Of a DNA stretch of 52,924 bases, positions 22,446-44,738 are shown one piece after another (position 1 is the stretch's first letter; every line of letters begins with the position of its first letter). The stretch lies in NCBI GenBank assembly GCA_019038645.1, contig JAHOYT010000069.1, positions 1 to 52,924 of the forward strand, in the 5' to 3' direction. Origin of the DNA: Bacteroidales bacterium. Its GTDB lineage: Bacteria; Bacteroidota; Bacteroidia; Bacteroidales; UBA12077. The notes below the pieces were generated by a model. That model was not told where the DNA came from and ran no database searches. It saw only the letters and a list, made by a program, of their open reading frames with translations. The translations under genes and the position numbers were made by a program.

Positions 22446-23552
22446 ATGGATATCAAAACAACATTCTGGTTTTTTGATAGAATCAAGGAAGATAATCTTT
22501 GTCTTTTATACAATGGTAATTTTAGCGATGACATCACTACAAAATTCATCGAATTAAGCGAATATAATATTACGAACATTAACAGTTTATCGAAAATGAA
22601 GAAAAAAGTCTCTTTTTTGATGGCTGAATGTTTCCAGAATATTGTACGCCATGGAGAGGCCCTTGAGAATAAAGTTGATGTTGCCCCAAATGAGGGTTTC
22701 TTCCTTACGAAAAACTGGCAGGATATTTATTATATAACATCCGGAAATTTAATTGAGAAAAAAAAGATTGAGGATGTAAAAGCTCAGCTTGAAACGGTTA
22801 ATCGTCTTGATAAAGAAGAATTAAAAGTTCTATACCGACAGGTACTGGAAAACCAGGAATTTACTGAAAAAGGAGGCGCTGGTCTTGGATTAATTGAGAT
22901 GGCACGTAAATCAGGTCAAAAGCTGGAATATACATTTAACGATTTTGATGATAAATATTCTCTTTTTTATAATCAGATTCTACTTAAATCTGATCAAGAA
23001 GTTATTAACGCAAGTGATAGTGAATTTGAAATAGGTGAAGCAGTTAACTATCATCGGAAAATGATTTCCGAAAATATTCTGATTATACACAAAGGAGACT
23101 TTTCACAGGATTCCATTTTCCCGGTATTACAAATCATCGAACAAAATCTTCAAAAAGAAAAAAAAGATTCTGTTTCTAAAAAGAAAATATTCCATATTCT
23201 TGTTGAACTTCTTCAAAATGTTAGTCATCATTGTTTAAAAGAAGGAACTAAAAAAGAAGGAATATTTATGATCGGAGAATCTGAGAAGTATTTTGTAATA
23301 AATACCGGAAATTTTATAAGAAATGAAGAGGTTGATAAACTAACAGAACATCTTGATTATATTAACGGGCTTAATGGAAAAGAGCTTAAGGATTTTTATC
23401 TTAGCAAATTACGTGAACGAAACATACCTAATAACGGAGGTGCAGGAATAGGACTTATTGATATTGCACGAAGATTAATATCTCCTGTAAATTACTCAAT
23501 CCAAAAAATTGACGATATGAAATCATTTCTTTCTATTAATATAATTGCATAA
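22446..23552 (+). CDS. SiaB-family kinase with two tandem ATPase-like domains
   Basis: A 368-residue protein made of two similar halves. Each half has a GHKL N-box-like segment (ECFQNIVRHG at residues 61-70; ELLQNVSHHC near 251-260) and a glycine box (GGAGLGLIEMAR near 143; GGAGIGLIDIAR near 330). SiaB/DUF6272 proteins are single-domain kinases that phosphorylate the partner-switch protein SiaC; here the unit is duplicated inside one chain and both copies keep their motifs. The SiaC gene starts 10 bases downstream. In Pseudomonas the module also has a PP2C phosphatase (SiaA) and a diguanylate cyclase (SiaD); neither is adjacent here. No promoter of the standard type is visible upstream. Confidence 0.82.
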   Translation: MDIKTTFWFFDRIKEDNLCLLYNGNFSDDITTKFIELSEYNITNINSLSKMKKKVSFLMAECFQNIVRHGEALENKVDVAPNEGFFLTKNWQDIYYITSGNLIEKKKIEDVKAQLETVNRLDKEELKVLYRQVLENQEFTEKGGAGLGLIEMARKSGQKLEYTFNDFDDKYSLFYNQILLKSDQEVINASDSEFEIGEAVNYHRKMISENILIIHKGDFSQDSIFPVLQIIEQNLQKEKKDSVSKKKIFHILVELLQNVSHHCLKEGTKKEGIFMIGESEKYFVINTGNFIRNEEVDKLTEHLDYINGLNGKELKDFYLSKLRERNIPNNGGAGIGLIDIARRLISPVNYSIQKIDDMKSFLSINIIA

Positions 23553-23562
23553 AAATTCTGAA

Positions 23563-23943
23563 ATGATTCCAAATCTTGAAATAAAAGGAACGCGAGATAC
23601 TCCTGAAATAATTTTTGATAAAGAAAATAATTTATTCGAAATCAAAGGTAACTCTTTGCCAGAAGATACAACCAAATTTTTTTCTCCACTTTTCGAGTGG
23701 ATTTCGGAATATATAAAATCTCCAAACAAATCGACTCATTTGATTTGCAAACTTGAATATTTTAATTCATCATCGGCAAAAATGTTTTATGAAGTTTTTC
23801 TTGAATTTCAGAAAATTGCCAAAACCGGAAATGAAATTAAAATTAGCTGGTATTTTGAGCCCGGTGATAAATTAATCGAAGAAAAAGGATTAGAATTTCA
23901 GTCTATTCTCGATATCCCTTTTGAACTTAAGGAAGCAAAATAA
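23563..23943 (+). CDS. SiaC-family (DUF1987) partner-switch regulatory phosphoprotein
   Basis: A 126-residue protein starting at the ATG at 23563, 10 bases after the SiaB-like stop; a TTG start at 23545 would overlap that gene. It matches DUF1987 with GTRDTPEIIFD near the N-terminus, a hydrophobic FEWISEYI helix, and KLEYFNSSSAKMFYEVFLEF. SiaC is phosphorylated near the equivalent of Thr68 in Pseudomonas; here the site would fall in the serine run 69-71, which is inference. Unphosphorylated SiaC activates a diguanylate cyclase there, but none is in this window, so the target must be elsewhere or different. Confidence 0.85.
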   Translation: MIPNLEIKGTRDTPEIIFDKENNLFEIKGNSLPEDTTKFFSPLFEWISEYIKSPNKSTHLICKLEYFNSSSAKMFYEVFLEFQKIAKTGNEIKISWYFEPGDKLIEEKGLEFQSILDIPFELKEAK

Positions 23944-34661: not shown

Positions 34662-37600
34662 TTAGAATCTTCTTCCAACAAAAACAATATCATCAATCTG
34701 ATCATGGTTTTTCATCCAGTCCAGAATAAACCTTTCTAATTCTTCACCTTGTTCTTTCATCGACATTTCCTGAATTGAAATCAATAAATCTTTCATATTC
34801 TTTTTTCGGAATTTACGTCCGTCCTCACCACCAAACTGATCGGCATAACCATCAGAAAAAATGTAATAAGTATCTCCCTTTTCAACTTTTATTTCATGAT
34901 TTGTAAACTTCTTATTATCATGAACGGTAGTCATTCCAATAGGGAAGCGATCTGCTTTTATCTCTTCAAGTTCTCCATTTCTAATTCTAATTAAAGGATT
35001 ATAGCCACCTGAGTATTCAAGTATTTGTGTATCCCTATTATAACAAATTAAGGCTAAATCCATACCATCATTTACAACTCTTTCGCCTTTTACGTTTTTC
35101 TGATGTAAGGCGTTAATAATTTCTATATCCAGCTGATCCAGAATTTTTGCCGGTTCAAGAAACCCATACTCCCTTACAATCTTTGTAAGCATACTGTGTC
35201 CGAGTATTGAAAGAAATGCTCCAGGCACTCCGTGTCCTGTACAATCTACAGCAGCAATCATCTCTTTATTTCCGATTGTTTCCAGCCAGTAAAAATCGCC
35301 GCTCACAATATCTTTTGGTCTGAAAAATATAAATGTATCATCAAAAGGTATTTCAGGTGGTAAAACCGCAGTTTGTATACGTTTTGCATATCTAATACTA
35401 TCCGTAATATCCTTGTTTTTCTTTTCAATCTCAATACTTTTCTGAACTACTTCTGCCGTTCTTTCCTCCACTTTTTCTTCAAGAATTTTCTTTTCAATTA
35501 TTAAGTTTCTTTCACGAACTTTTATGTAAGAGATTATACTTATTATACCAACAGCAATAGCTGATAAAATAAACCACCATGTTTTGTAGAATGGGGGACG
35601 AATGGTAAAAGTATAAGTAACAGGTTCTGAGCTCCACACTCCTGCGCTATTTCTTGCTTTCACCTTAAAGACGTAGTTATCAGGAGCTAATGAAGAATAG
35701 TTTGCAACAGTCTGTTCGGTTACCGGTCGCCAAACTTTATCAGCTGGCTCCAGCATAATCTGATATCGTACAGCATCCGGGTTATTCAAACATATACTAT
35801 GGAAATCGAATATTACCGAGTTTTCAAGATAACTAAATTTCTGTCCTGAAATCATTTCCCGATCTTCCAGGTTAATTCTCAATCCTGAAATATCGATAAG
35901 CGGATCCTGGGGAATACATAAATCAAATTTTGGAGAATATTTCGTTACCCCCTTTACTGTGCCAAACCATAAATTTCCTTCTTTATCTCTATAGGTAGCA
36001 TTATCCTTTGCTTCAATTCCTGTAAATCCGCTCTTTTCTGTGTATATGTGAATATTCCCGTTTGTGTCAACTTTATTTAAACCCCGGCTGGTTCCTACAA
36101 AAATATTATTGTTATCATCAATATTAAGCTGGGTAATTGAATTTGATAACAAACCATCACTTTCGCTTAAAGTTCTTATAATGGTTTTTCCATCGCATAC
36201 TAATACTCCTTTAGATAATGTTCCTATCACAATATTACCATCTTTATCTTCAACCATACACTGTGGCGTTACTAAACCTTCAAATTCAATCTTGCCAATA
36301 CTATCTCCCTGAATATAATTTAATCCCTTGCCCTCAATTCCAACCCAGACACGATTTTTTGAATCCGCATAAAGAGCAGAAATAGTTGAACCATTCAAAC
36401 CCGTAATCTGGGTTAAAAACTGGCTTTGCTCTTTATTAATATCATAGTAAATTAATCCTTCAAGTGTACCTACCCAAAGTTGATTTTGTTTATCAACATC
36501 GAGCGCAGTCACGGAATAGTTTGTGATGAAATACCTGTTAATTATTGGATTGTATTCAAAACGTCCCGTTTTGTAGTTGTACATACTAACACCATTATCA
36601 TCAGTCCCAATCCAAACGTTGCCATTATTGTCATTTTTTAAATATCTGATTTGATCGCCTATGGCGTTAGATTCCAGATTATAATGGGCAAACTTTATTC
36701 CTTTACCCCCGGCTTTTGGATTATAAACCGAAACACCTTTGTTCGTGCCAAACCAATACTTCCCTCCTTTATCCTGTACAACAGCCCAAACGTTTTGATC
36801 AATTAACCCATCATCGGTACCATAAGTAGTAAATTTTTCTCCTTTAAAAATAGCTAATCCATGCTCATACGTCGAAATAAGAATATTTCCTTCTAAATCT
36901 TCTAATATTTTATAAATCTTTAGATCGAGTAATCCATTTGAATTATCAAACGTTTTAAAACCATCATCTGAAAATTTGGTTATTCCTCCTCCCCAGGTTC
37001 CAATCCAAACATTCCCCTTGCTATCTTCAGTAATTGTACTTATCCAGTTATCTGCTATTCCATCACGTTCCGCATCATACGTTATAAATTCATTTTTTTC
37101 CTTAATGTATCTATTTAATCCCCCGTGATAAGTTCCAAACCAAATATCTCCTTTTTGATCTTCAAGCATTGCTGTAATTGCAAAATATCTATCCAAACCT
37201 TTAGGAGCAAATCTTTCAAAAGAATTTTTTGATTTATTGTATTTCTTTATACCCGTATCGGTAATAAAAAAGATAGTATCTCCTTTAGCAATTGTTCCGG
37301 AAATGACTCTGTCGCTTAATCTTCTTCCTTTGTAATGTTCATATTTTATTTTCTCAGGATCTAATTCATATGGAGTATCTAAACGAATTAATCCATCTCC
37401 ATGTGTTGTTATCCATAAAACATTTTCATGATCCATTAAAATTGAAGAAATTTCTGCATTCAGAGAATCACTAACAGGATGTATTTTAAATTCTTTACCA
37501 TCAAAAAAAGAAACACCTCCTGATTTGTGCCCCATCCAGATATTACCTTGCGAATCTTTAAATAACGCCTTTATTCCTCCTTCAGCTAATCCATTCTCGG

Positions 37601-37856
37601 CTGTGTAATTTGTAAAATATAATCCATCGAACTTTGAGATTCCACTTTCAGTAGCCAACCATAAATAGCCATGATCATCCTGCAATACATCATACACTTT
37701 TGATTGTGGAAGACCTTCCTTAACACCGTAATAATCGAAATAATACGTTTGAGCAGATAAGGTAGATACACTAAGCAGAATTACTGCATAAAAAAAAGTT
37801 ATTCGCTGTAATGAGCGAATAACTTTTTTAATTTTCGGATTATGTGAAAATATCAT
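34662..37856 (-). CDS. Two-component-propeller sensor with SpoIIE (PP2C) phosphatase domain
   Basis: A 1064-residue membrane sensor. After a signal/anchor (residues 14-36) come about 14 two-component-propeller repeats (for example KVYDVLQDDHGYLWLATESG and IKALFKDSQGNIWMGHKSGG), which make two seven-bladed propellers, then a Y_Y_Y domain (about 680-760), a membrane helix near 765-785, a coiled coil and a SpoIIE/RsbU-type phosphatase domain (about 840-1064). The phosphatase has FFRPKDIVSGDFYW, AAVDCTGHGVPGAFLSILGH and the terminal DDIVFVG with metal-binding Asp residues. So it senses something outside and dephosphorylates a partner-switch protein (SpoIIAA/SiaC type) inside. The caspase-like gene ends 14 bases upstream, so they form an operon. 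Confidence 0.92.
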   Translation of the reverse strand: MIFSHNPKIKKVIRSLQRITFFYAVILLSVSTLSAQTYYFDYYGVKEGLPQSKVYDVLQDDHGYLWLATESGISKFDGLYFTNYTAENGLAEGGIKALFKDSQGNIWMGHKSGGVSFFDGKEFKIHPVSDSLNAEISSILMDHENVLWITTHGDGLIRLDTPYELDPEKIKYEHYKGRRLSDRVISGTIAKGDTIFFITDTGIKKYNKSKNSFERFAPKGLDRYFAITAMLEDQKGDIWFGTYHGGLNRYIKEKNEFITYDAERDGIADNWISTITEDSKGNVWIGTWGGGITKFSDDGFKTFDNSNGLLDLKIYKILEDLEGNILISTYEHGLAIFKGEKFTTYGTDDGLIDQNVWAVVQDKGGKYWFGTNKGVSVYNPKAGGKGIKFAHYNLESNAIGDQIRYLKNDNNGNVWIGTDDNGVSMYNYKTGRFEYNPIINRYFITNYSVTALDVDKQNQLWVGTLEGLIYYDINKEQSQFLTQITGLNGSTISALYADSKNRVWVGIEGKGLNYIQGDSIGKIEFEGLVTPQCMVEDKDGNIVIGTLSKGVLVCDGKTIIRTLSESDGLLSNSITQLNIDDNNNIFVGTSRGLNKVDTNGNIHIYTEKSGFTGIEAKDNATYRDKEGNLWFGTVKGVTKYSPKFDLCIPQDPLIDISGLRINLEDREMISGQKFSYLENSVIFDFHSICLNNPDAVRYQIMLEPADKVWRPVTEQTVANYSSLAPDNYVFKVKARNSAGVWSSEPVTYTFTIRPPFYKTWWFILSAIAVGIISIISYIKVRERNLIIEKKILEEKVEERTAEVVQKSIEIEKKNKDITDSIRYAKRIQTAVLPPEIPFDDTFIFFRPKDIVSGDFYWLETIGNKEMIAAVDCTGHGVPGAFLSILGHSMLTKIVREYGFLEPAKILDQLDIEIINALHQKNVKGERVVNDGMDLALICYNRDTQILEYSGGYNPLIRIRNGELEEIKADRFPIGMTTVHDNKKFTNHEIKVEKGDTYYIFSDGYADQFGGEDGRKFRKKNMKDLLISIQEMSMKEQGEELERFILDWMKNHDQIDDIVFVGRRF

Positions 37857-37870
37857 ATTATATTTTTTAA

Positions 37871-40228
37871 TTACCTTTCTTTTGCAATAAAGAAAAATGT
37901 TCCTCCTTCATCCTCTAATCCATCAATTTTACCGAATTGCGGTTTTTGCATTCCTCCTTTAGCAACCGCAACAGTTACCTTCGAAACAACATTCTCAATA
38001 GGTAAACATGCATTTGGATTATTTCTTAAAGTATTAGCAAAAGTTCTTGTAAATTGTGAATTATCAACAGCTAATTCATATCCGGCAGAAGAAAATACCT
38101 GAGAAGATTTAAACTTGGTTGCTTCCCAGTCGCCACAATCTCTATCTTTCAATCCTGAGCGCATTGCCTGGTAGAATGTAGGACCAGACTCACATGCATC
38201 TGATATTACCAATGTATGTGTAACAAATGTTGCATAGGATTGTAAGGCTGCTTTTAGTGTGCTAATATTGAAATAAGTAAACTCATCATCGCGAGTAGCA
38301 TCAGTAGGCACCCAATATCCAATATCGTTAATAAATTTACCATGTCCGGCATACCAAACAAGCAGCGAATTAACCTGGTTACTTCTTACCAGGTCACGCA
38401 ATTCAATCGCAAAAAATCTTTCCATCTCAGCTTTGGACATATTTTGCTTATGAAGAATATTATGAACTTTATAATTTGCCAGAGCAGCCTTCATCATACT
38501 AACATCTTTAATAGGTCCTTCTAAACTGGCAAAAGTCTCATAATCCGAATTCTCAACAAAAATAACCCATGTTTTACCCATAGGATTTTCCTGAGATATT
38601 TCCAGTGCTTCTCTGTTAATTCTATATTCCATTTCGCTTACATTGCCATAAATATCTTCTGCTTTTACCACAAACTTATTTTTATTAGCAATATCAATCG
38701 TAGCATAGAACTCTGGATTCATAGCGTCGACAGAATAACTTGCTGTCATTTCATCAACAATAATGCTTTTGATTTTATTTTCATCGGCAATCCTGCCTTC
38801 AACATAAAGTTTTCGGTTATCAACATCCATATAAATTTCACCGGTTGATGAAGCATAAGGTGCAATCAAACTTATCTGAGGTGGATTAATTTCTGTTCTA
38901 TTTAATTTATATGTTGATGCCAAAACGTTGTTGTAAACATCTGCTATAGCTATTGAAACAGTTTCTTTACCTGTAACATTAAGTGTTACTGAAAATTCAT
39001 TGTTTTTACCGTTTTCATCAAAGGTCACATCAACACCATCTACTTTTGCCGACTTTATATCACTTTCATCAGCAATAAGTCCTAACAGAGTTACTTCAAT
39101 TGCGTCTTCAATAATATTTATTGAATTTCCGGCTTTTTCTGCTGGTTCTGTAAATGTCAGAACAGGCTTGTTGCCTTCACGGTTTAATTCATACAAACGA
39201 TCTTTAACAATCTTTAACCGGTCTTTCGCTTCTTTATCACTATCATCAGATAATTTGGCATATGTCTGGTAATCGGAAATTGCTTTTTCGTATTGCGTAA
39301 TCTCCTCGTTAGATTTAGCGCGATGGAAGTATGCCAGTGCATTTTTAGAATCAATCGAAATAACTTTACTAAAATCGTTTATCGCACTCTGGTGCTGATT
39401 AAATTCCTGGTAATAAATACCTCTTGCGAAAAAGGCTTCTAAATCATCCGGAGAGAAAATAATCATTTTGGATAAATCATTAATCGCACTTGGGTAGTCA
39501 ATCTTCTCTTTATAAATTTTACTTCTTGTCCATAATGCTTCTTTACATTTTGAATCAATGCCTAATGCTCTGGTACAAATATTCAATGATTGATCAAATT
39601 TTTTGGCTTTTAGAAGCACATTACCCAACAAAATATATGATTCCAGCATATTTGGAGATTTTTCTATCGCTTTTCTCAAATCTGTTTCAGCTTTATTATA
39701 ATCTTCAAGCTTATCACCAATATAACCTTTCCAATAAAAATTTTCCGCAGTCGCATTCAGGTCTACAAGGCTATTGCTTTCCTTAAGTGCCTGTTCATAT
39801 TTTTCAAGTGCGATGTAAGAATTCATTTTATACTTGTAGGCATTAATATGCTTCTTGTCAAGTGCAGTAACTTTTACAAGCATAGGTATTGCTTCCTCGT
39901 ATTGTTCAAGTTCATAATATAATCTACCTGCATTGTAATAAATGGATTCATCTTTATCTTCAAAGGCAGTAGCTCTTTTGTAATCACTTGCAGCTTCCTC
40001 TTTTTTATCAGCTTTCTCATATGCCTCAGCTCTTGCAACATAAGCTTCCGTATATTCAGGAGTTTCTTCTATCAGTTTTGTAAACTGAGCAATAGCATCC
40101 TCATAATTACCAGATGCTACGAAATCTTTACCCGTTGTATATAATTTAGGACTACACTGAACTAAAGAAAACAGTATAATTAGCATTGGGGTAAAGAATA
40201 ACACACGCTTTAATCTAATTTTTCCCAT
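37871..40228 (-). CDS. TPR / Ig-like / caspase-like (C14) lipoprotein
   Basis: A 785-residue lipoprotein starting at the ATG at 40228 (MGKIRLKRVLFF); the longer frame needs a TTG. Lipobox LVQC at Cys25. Residues 30-360 are about nine TPR repeats, 365-560 hold two beta-sandwich Ig-like domains with matching ends (YKLNRTEINPP and YRINREALEIS), and 565-785 a caspase-like peptidase. The dyad is His near 628 (WYAGHGKF) and Cys near 677 (VISDACESG), with both flanks typical of C14 enzymes, so it should be active after Asp or Arg/Lys. It is followed after 14 bases by the propeller-SpoIIE gene. A caspase domain in an exported lipoprotein and paired with a phosphatase sensor is unusual. Confidence 0.88.
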   Translation of the reverse strand: MGKIRLKRVLFFTPMLIILFSLVQCSPKLYTTGKDFVASGNYEDAIAQFTKLIEETPEYTEAYVARAEAYEKADKKEEAASDYKRATAFEDKDESIYYNAGRLYYELEQYEEAIPMLVKVTALDKKHINAYKYKMNSYIALEKYEQALKESNSLVDLNATAENFYWKGYIGDKLEDYNKAETDLRKAIEKSPNMLESYILLGNVLLKAKKFDQSLNICTRALGIDSKCKEALWTRSKIYKEKIDYPSAINDLSKMIIFSPDDLEAFFARGIYYQEFNQHQSAINDFSKVISIDSKNALAYFHRAKSNEEITQYEKAISDYQTYAKLSDDSDKEAKDRLKIVKDRLYELNREGNKPVLTFTEPAEKAGNSINIIEDAIEVTLLGLIADESDIKSAKVDGVDVTFDENGKNNEFSVTLNVTGKETVSIAIADVYNNVLASTYKLNRTEINPPQISLIAPYASSTGEIYMDVDNRKLYVEGRIADENKIKSIIVDEMTASYSVDAMNPEFYATIDIANKNKFVVKAEDIYGNVSEMEYRINREALEISQENPMGKTWVIFVENSDYETFASLEGPIKDVSMMKAALANYKVHNILHKQNMSKAEMERFFAIELRDLVRSNQVNSLLVWYAGHGKFINDIGYWVPTDATRDDEFTYFNISTLKAALQSYATFVTHTLVISDACESGPTFYQAMRSGLKDRDCGDWEATKFKSSQVFSSAGYELAVDNSQFTRTFANTLRNNPNACLPIENVVSKVTVAVAKGGMQKPQFGKIDGLEDEGGTFFFIAKER

Positions 40229-43648: not shown

Positions 43649-44738
43649 ATGATTTCTACTGATCAAATAAAAGATGTAGAGAAGCGCCGGGATGCGCTGA
43701 GGAGGCATCTTTGACATCGAAAATAAATTAATCCGAATTGAAGAAGAAGAGGAAAAAACACAATCGCCTGAATTTTGGAACAATCCACAGGAAGCAGAAA
43801 AGCAATTAAAACATATTTCACAATTAAAACAGTGGACAGATTCATTTAAAGAAATTGAGACTCAAATTAATGAATTAAAAATTGCCATTGACTTTTTTCA
43901 GGAAGGAGAAATTGAGGAATCTGAAGTAGAAAGTCTGTATACAAAAACTGTTAATCTAATAGAGATCCTGGAGCTAAAGAATATGCTGCGCAAAGAAGAA
44001 GATTCCCTGGGAGCGTATTTGCAAATTAATCCTGGCGCAGGAGGAACAGAAAGTCATGATTGGGCCGAAATGTTAATGCGGATGTATATTCGCTGGGGAG
44101 AACGCAACAAATACAAAGTAAGAAAGGTAAATTACCAACCAGGCGATACTGCAGGTATAAAAACTGTTACTCTGGAGTTTTCAGGAGATTTTGCTTACGG
44201 ATACTTAAAAAGTGAAAATGGAGTCCACAGATTAGTTCGTTTATCTCCTTTTGATTCCGCCAACCGTCGTCACACCTCATTTGCATCAGTTTTTGTGTCT
44301 CCTGTTGTTGATGAAACTATTGAAATTACTATAAATCCTGCTGATATTACCTGGGATACATTTCGTTCAAGTGGTGCGGGAGGGCAACATGTAAATAAAG
44401 TAGAAACAGCTGTAAGGCTCAGACATGCTCCTACAGGAATAGTAATCGAAAATCAGGAAACCAGATCGCAATTAAACAACAAAGAAAACGCATTACGAAT
44501 GCTTAAATCTCAGTTGTACGAACTAGAATTAAGGAAAAAAATAGAAGAAAAAGCCAAAGTAGAGGGTGAAAAGAAAAAAATTGAATGGGGATCACAAATC
44601 AGAAATTATGTATTACATCCTTACAAAATAATAAAAGATGTGAGAACAAATTTTGAAGTCGGTAACGTTCAGGATGTCCTTGATGGAAATCTGGATGGAT
44701 TTATAAAGGCCTATTTAATGGAATTTGGAGAAAATTAG
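43649..44738 (+). CDS. prfB: Peptide chain release factor 2, made by programmed +1 frameshift
   Basis: The gene begins MISTDQIKDVEKRRDALRRH in one frame (ATG 43649), meets TGA at 43712-43714, and continues from the GAC at 43713 in the +1 frame for 341 residues, giving a 362-residue RF2. The site has CTT TGA C preceded by AGGAGG at 43700-43705 with three bases between, the arrangement of E. coli prfB. RF2 features are the SPF anticodon-like tripeptide (VRLSPFDSANRRH) and the catalytic GGQ (SSGAGGQHVNKVETAV). It terminates at UGA and UAA, and the frameshift lets low RF2 raise its own synthesis. prmC, which methylates this GGQ, lies upstream. A shorter start at 43983 would lose domain 1 and is not the real one. 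Confidence 0.95.
43700..43714 (+). promoter_or_regulatory. prfB programmed frameshift signal
   Basis: AGGAGG (43700-43705) acts as an internal Shine-Dalgarno; CAT; then CTT TGA with C following. Weak termination at TGAC lets the ribosome slip +1 on CTT T. Confidence 0.92.

Follow-up and report, generated by a model that had tools for sequence, protein, structure and literature searches.

Why does a gene for an exported caspase-like protein stand directly ahead of a gene for a membrane-bound phosphatase, and do the two products work together? The question is raised by two genes, here called C and P, in a stretch of 52,924 nucleotides (contig JAHOYT010000069.1 of the Bacteroidales assembly GCA_019038645.1), referred to below as the window. 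Both genes are on the minus strand; the stop of C is at 37871 and the ATG start of P at 37856, and the coordinates and the 14-base gap given in the initial annotation agree with the list of open reading frames. It was found that C and P lie together in most of the genomes examined that carry C. C and P are somewhat more probably than not a dedicated envelope-signalling module, in which periplasmic proteolysis by C would act on P and, through P, on a SiaC-type phosphorylation switch. The features of the locus are as follows, with their basis in brackets.

37871 to 40228, minus strand: gene C, secreted TPR/Ig-like/caspase protein of 785 amino acids (open reading frame, Pfam, AlphaFold)
40154 to 40228, minus strand: signal sequence of C, residues 1-25, ending in the lineage-specific Cys25, a possible lipobox (N-terminal alignment)
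39173 to 40153, minus strand: nine TPRs and a capping helix of C, residues 26-352 (Pfam and AlphaFold model)
38606 to 39172, minus strand: two Ig-like beta sandwiches of C, residues 353-449 and 450-541 (AlphaFold model)
37874 to 38587, minus strand: C14 caspase domain of C, residues 548-785 (Pfam; conservation)
38342 to 38344, minus strand: predicted catalytic His629 of C, in YAGHG (alignments)
38192 to 38194, minus strand: predicted catalytic Cys679 of C, in DACESG (alignments)
37857 to 37870, minus strand: intergenic gap between C and P, 14 bases (list of open reading frames)
34662 to 37856, minus strand: gene P, propeller/Y_Y_Y/transmembrane/PP2C sensor phosphatase of 1064 amino acids (open reading frame, Pfam, AlphaFold)
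35907 to 37751, minus strand: periplasmic double beta-propeller of P, residues 36-650, with the seven C-linked marker positions described below (Pfam, model, structural and residue comparison)
35586 to 35906, minus strand: Y_Y_Y domain of P, residues 651-757 (Pfam)
35517 to 35579, minus strand: transmembrane helix of P, residues about 760-780 (transmembrane prediction and model)
34665 to 35351, minus strand: cytoplasmic SiaA-type PP2C phosphatase domain of P, residues 836-1064 (Pfam, NCBIfam, 6k4e match, structure)

Is the pair common among relatives? A scan with the caspase alignment yielded 248 relatives, and the best 80 were examined as named loci (L numbers). All 80 come from metagenome-assembled genomes labelled Bacteroidales, Flavobacteriales, Vicingaceae, Bacteroides sp., Bacteroidia, or just Bacteroidetes or Bacteroidota. 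In 74 of the 80, C is followed directly by P on the same strand, and the order is always this one; the median gap is again 14 nucleotides, and 57 of the 74 gaps are shorter than 20 nucleotides or overlapping. The other six comprise L158 and L183, which end at C, and L142, L151, L180 and L190, which have no P next. The genome of L183 has a P orthologue (48% identity) at a contig start, so L183 is probably one more such pair, broken up in the assembly.

A second survey covered 147 related genomes (G numbers); the two sets overlap, L121-L137 (17 loci) matching contigs of the window's genus in length. A search with C at E up to 1e-20 gave a match in 36 genomes. G041, G050, G057, G080 and G100 were left out, their caspases being only 25-31% identical and taken as paralogues, as were extra matches of this kind elsewhere. 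Thus, a C orthologue is present in 31 of the 147 genomes, namely the window's genome, 18 of 19 genus relatives and 12 others of the order. P orthologues, defined by at least 39% identity (search at E up to 1e-120, at most five candidates scored per genome), were found in the same 31 genomes; matches at 30-38% and that of G057 (46%, over residues 561-1064 only) were not counted, and in the P tree the copies of G057 and G113 do not belong to the C-linked clade. Within the genus, P adjoins C in all 17 loci with readable downstream sequence (the contig of G004 ends inside C), and in the other genomes of the order P is next in 10 of 12 (G031, G038, G062, G066, G067, G073, G086, G122, G135 and G141), with longer gaps in G086 (356 nucleotides), G073 (124) and G062 (121). 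When 395 genomes sampled across the phylum were searched for C (E up to 1e-70) and for P (E up to 1e-150), only the window's own genome matched; at those limits, the pair is therefore confined to certain lineages. Adjacency, on which the initial annotation had staked its proposal, is confirmed: the pair is real and conserved beyond chance.

Could the adjacency be inherited synteny with no functional link? The upstream genes form 10 clusters over 66 loci and the downstream genes 16 clusters over 61 loci. The largest clusters, a ribD-like gene upstream (45/66) and a LOG-like gene downstream (27/61), both named by eye, would fit such inheritance, but the pair survives other neighbours on both sides, including those of the Flavobacteriales-labelled loci L148, L154, L166, L174, L177 and L200, and C and P co-occur genome by genome. 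Since the flanks vary while C and P stay together, the synteny-only reading was rejected as highly improbable.

What kind of protein is C? It matches Pfam C14 at E=1.2e-13 (51.7 bits, cut-off 21.4) over profile positions 3-223 of 233, as well as numerous TPR models. The AlphaFold model has a mean predicted local distance difference test score (pLDDT) of 81.8, with about 70 in the caspase part as read in 10-residue blocks. It consists of nine TPR helix pairs (residues 26-326), a capping helix, two sandwiches (residues 356-444 and 451-538) and an alpha/beta C-terminal domain. The nine TPRs that had been noted are borne out by Pfam and the model alike. The two Ig-like domains appear in the model as beta sandwiches, but the Pfam scan named no Ig domain, so the label Ig-like rests on the AlphaFold model. 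In a structural comparison of the whole model the matches were filled by TPR proteins, so that the comparison bears on the TPR part. Across 37 full-length C sequences, mean conservation is highest in the caspase domain (0.82), against 0.52 in the TPR part and 0.47 and 0.67 in the two Ig-like domains.

The predicted catalytic residues His629 and Cys679 are invariant in 20 aligned C orthologues and also in the 37-row alignment. Among 32 C sequences from relatives the Cys motif is present in 32 and GHG in 31; among the 80 named loci the Cys motif is present in 80 and the His motif in 79. The sole exception in both sets is one contig (L073/L133) whose sequence is garbled locally, which looks like an assembly error. 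The dyad was the second point that the initial annotation had made decisive, and it is conserved. C is best described as a C14 caspase-fold protein with a conserved dyad and as a putative peptidase. Metacaspases have an Asp two residues ahead of the Cys, and the DAC of C is alike.

How is C exported? An equivalent of Cys25 is present in all 17 genus relatives whose N-terminus is readable; ahead of it stands E (11 sequences), Q (5) or the canonical G (1). In the 37-row alignment, Cys occurs at this position in three rows, those of the window's genus only; the remaining 34 have xQ (mostly AQ, SQ or GQ) followed by N, S, A, K or T. By eye, these other N-termini are like a signal-peptidase-I end, that is, a plain signal peptide. 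The description of C as a lipoprotein therefore stands only in part: lipidation confined to the window's genus is plausible, with the canonical G before the Cys in just one of the 17, and C elsewhere probably has an ordinary signal peptide. As one example, the initial annotation also had the lipoprotein cleaving or scaffolding at the propeller. In G062 and G066, the gene ahead of P encodes a signal peptide and a caspase domain alone (261 and 263 amino acids). Because such standalone secreted caspases adjoin P, the TPR scaffold is less likely as the essential link between C and P, and it was rejected in that role. The P tree suggests two losses of the TPR/Ig part, but the poorly supported caspase tree does not, and no number of losses is claimed.

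P has a signal sequence, a Reg_prop double propeller (Pfam E=5e-50), Y_Y_Y (4e-10), one transmembrane helix, a coil and SpoIIE/PP2C (3e-18), in this order, and the pLDDT of its AlphaFold model is 86.5. Pfam, the predicted helix and the model agree with the 1064-residue sensor of the initial annotation, with propellers outside and a SpoIIE-type phosphatase inside. The ectodomain model resembles that of BT4663 (TM-score to target 0.79), a type of hybrid two-component sensor that likewise has a periplasmic double propeller and Y_Y_Y. In contrast to these sensors, the output of P is a phosphatase and a caspase gene lies beside it; the Pfam scan of P found neither a histidine kinase nor a receiver domain, and SpoIIE takes their place. 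The PP2C model superposes on the PP2C domain of SiaA (6k4e) with a TM-score to target of 0.88 and a root-mean-square deviation of 2.4, and the profile match to 6k4e has E=1.4e-37. The NCBIfam SiaA model NF038263 is matched at E=3.3e-54 over its C-terminal part, with 184.5 bits, which does not reach the equivalog cut-off of 700 bits set for the whole protein. P is thus taken to have a SiaA-type PP2C domain and is not claimed to be SiaA itself. Conserved active-site motifs are present in both enzymes, C and P.

A surface unit resembling PorU/PorZ, serving type IX secretion or surface attachment, was also considered. PorU is a C25 peptidase of clan CD, so that both systems combine a caspase-fold peptidase with a Reg_prop-type propeller protein, and P matches the NCBIfam PorZ model at 2e-24. 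However, the match has 85.9 bits, under the 260-bit cut-off, and the ectodomain of P is far nearer to BT4663 than to PorZ (5m11; TM-score to target 0.33), so P was rejected as a PorZ. PorZ is described as delivering anionic lipopolysaccharide to the PorU sortase (PMC8545088). The Por proteins form a surface system with another peptidase family and have neither a transmembrane helix nor a phosphatase, both of which P has; C matches C14, and its Pfam scan gave no Por_Secre_tail match. Such a role for C and P is very unlikely.

Does P carry a trace of a periplasmic partner? Seven positions of P (245, 338, 451, 483, 531, 594 and 614) have the same residue in at least 93% of 48 C-linked copies, a residue found in at most 15% of 19 other P sequences. 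All seven fall in the propellers, which make up 615 of the 1064 residues; by simple arithmetic an even spread would give about 0.02. Of the 101 positions common to C-linked and other P, 62 are in the coil and PP2C. The confinement of the markers to the propellers is the pattern that a periplasmic partner would leave, though it is not proof of one. Lys338 is present in all 48 C-linked P sequences and could be a cutting site or a contact. The same data bear on a second explanation, in which C and P together make up a stable complex for sensing, the caspase fold docking or binding a ligand and its conserved surface binding the propeller, with protease activity incidental or limited to self-processing. 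The propeller residues particular to C-linked P fit this, as does conservation of the caspase domain far past the dyad (at least 95% in 115 of 238 columns). But both dyad motifs are present in practically all copies, which would be unnecessary if the domain served for docking alone. I consider such a complex unlikely.

What lies on the cytoplasmic side? One further feature of the window is relevant here.

22446 to 23943, plus strand: genes for DUF6272 (SiaB-like, two matched stretches) and SiaC, overlapping by a few bases (profile matches)

These genes lie about 11 kb from P, and they may serve P. In three loci (L090, L152 and L153), C, P, SiaB and SiaC genes stand in one row, an arrangement pointing to the cytoplasmic pathway of P. 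L152 and G073 (the genome of L090) are sisters in the P tree, which does not include L153, so the three rows may represent one lineage. A gene of 174-188 amino acids was seen directly after each row (L090 5208-5774, L152 13186-13710, L153 5748-6272). In Pseudomonas aeruginosa, SiaABC(D) is a partner switch based on threonine phosphorylation: SiaA acts on SiaC phosphorylated at Thr68, SiaB has kinase activity with SiaC, and SiaC has a fold like an anti-sigma-factor antagonist (PMC7647112). P differs from SiaA in its sensor, a double propeller with Y_Y_Y, and in its caspase partner. The initial annotation had linked P to a partner switch in general terms; since the phosphatase of P is of the SiaA type, SiaB/SiaC are likelier partners than RsbW/RsbV. 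The window's genome has 18 SpoIIE, 14 SiaC and 4 STAS places, and in view of the STAS proteins the target may instead be of the RsbV type. These profile counts are lower bounds, because the Pfam C14 search of the same genome found four places and missed the window's caspase, while a protein search found it and two more caspase-type places. The 14 SiaC and 18 SpoIIE places amount to a large switch set.

Taken together, C would be an extracytoplasmic caspase-fold cysteine peptidase and P an inner-membrane receptor whose periplasmic double propeller cooperates with C. C may cut the propeller region of P or a protein bound there, and P would thereby be switched on or off. The PP2C domain would then remove phosphate from a SiaC-type phosphoprotein, opposing a SiaB-type kinase, so that a periplasmic proteolytic event would reset a cytoplasmic phosphorylation switch. 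I infer four elements of this scheme: contact between C and P, proteolysis, the direction of control, and SiaC as substrate.

Several observations weigh against the scheme. In the C model, the loop directly past the catalytic His has a pLDDT below 50. In the alignment with 6k4e, the loop GGEHGF of SiaA is GGEDGR in P, and Phe612 and Arg652 of SiaA (numbering of this analysis) are Arg and Ile; Arg652 is the proposed phosphothreonine holder, so recognition of SiaC may differ in P. The reading frame of P is broken into two pieces in G122 and G005, and P is likewise split in L139 and L197. C and P are both present but apart in G059 and G061, the genome of L180 has a P orthologue (50% identity) apart from C, and G066 has an additional full-length C away from P. 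No P orthologue of at least 38% identity was found in the genomes, of unstated completeness, of L142, L151, L190 and L158 (locus L158 ends at C). In L142 (8202-8213) and L151 (8723-8765), P is missing while the surrounding gene order is intact, which suggests that P was lost and C retained, and thus that C is of some use without P.

May the order of events be the reverse? The pathway of P might govern an envelope process carried out by C, such as processing or turnover of surface proteins, the two being co-regulated with no contact. C without P in a few genomes, C and P apart in three genomes, and two other P paralogues that adjoin PKD-type extracytoplasmic genes would all fit. Nevertheless, the C-linked P clade is marked by residues of the propeller and not of PP2C, and the order C then P is fixed, mostly with short or overlapping gaps. 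I regard this reversal as quite unlikely, and proteolytic input from C to P as the preferred reading.

Is the pairing limited to this caspase subfamily? In G113, another C14 protein lies 5 nucleotides ahead of a propeller/Y_Y_Y/SpoIIE gene. Among 295 genomes of the order, 12 have relatives of this caspase (E up to 1e-60), at 17 places in all. Eight of these places have a propeller-PP2C gene next in line (directly in 6, after one gene in 2); 9 are without it, including L251, which ends inside the caspase gene. One of the eight caspases, in G187, is without the usual DxCxSG motif. In the P tree, each of the two kinds has a clade of its own (100/100 for both), and P copies without a caspase neighbour lie between the two; the caspases of the two kinds also separate (98/95 and 83/87). 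On these trees, the pairing may either have arisen twice or be old and often lost. Second-subfamily caspases beside propeller-PP2C genes (L107, L236-L242) range from 445 to 833 amino acids, so their N-terminal parts differ. Ahead of other propeller-PP2C paralogues (L103, L105, L109-L113) stands a gene of 322-331 amino acids. At L103 and L105 this gene had no match in a Pfam scan, and PKD-containing genes adjoin it or the P paralogue, which suggests a different extracytoplasmic partner set.

Is such a system known? Prokaryotic caspase homologues are often discussed as cell-death factors. Their functions are described as largely unknown, and TPRs are among their commonest partner domains (PMC3501461). 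C shares the C14 domain, the His/Cys dyad and the TPRs with bacterial orthocaspases and metacaspases, but it is exported and encoded beside a transmembrane phosphatase. Orthocaspases are described as cleaving after positively charged residues (PMC6426788). A profile of its caspase domain (window 37874-38587) against solved proteins at E up to 1 matched only MALT1 (best E=3.7e-4, profile positions 3-99 including the YAGHG region). In this paracaspase, as in C, Ig domains precede the caspase; the match is weak, partial and to a eukaryotic signalling protein, no bacterial enzyme being matched, and it serves as a lead only. With PADLOC models at E up to 0.001, no family was matched by C or P, and a known anti-phage defence system was rejected on this ground; the second-subfamily caspase of L107 matches the PADLOC 'caspase' model (7.5e-19). 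A viral or plasmid origin was also rejected, as no relative was found in one scan of viral contigs and none of the caspase domain among plasmids at E 1e-10. The operon survey in PMC3501461 does not mention SpoIIE, propeller or phosphatase anywhere in its main text. In the open-licence PMC papers searched, including PMC4933709, PMC6426788 and PMC3501461, no description of a caspase/propeller-phosphatase pairing was recognised, in line with the initial annotation, which knew of no such system. All domains of C and P are from known families; only their combination was not met in this literature.

Elsewhere in the window, at about 43649-44738 on the plus strand, there is by eye a release-factor-2-like gene with an apparent classical programmed frameshift site, CTTTGAC, at 43709; because of this site, the listed 251-amino-acid open reading frame is only part of the gene.

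What would the pair mean for these bacteria? From genome to genome, a whole exported caspase subfamily accompanies a single receptor phosphatase, a concrete candidate for its partner or substrate. The pair may also represent an input to SiaABC-type switches, and it suggests that proteins can act as partners of the large Bacteroidota propeller sensors. More tentatively, C and P may belong to a recurrent class of transmembrane signalling in Bacteroidota with at least two caspase subfamilies, in which an exported caspase would be the input, a propeller-PP2C protein the transducer and a SiaB/SiaC switch the end, so that periplasmic proteolysis would directly set cytoplasmic phosphorylation.

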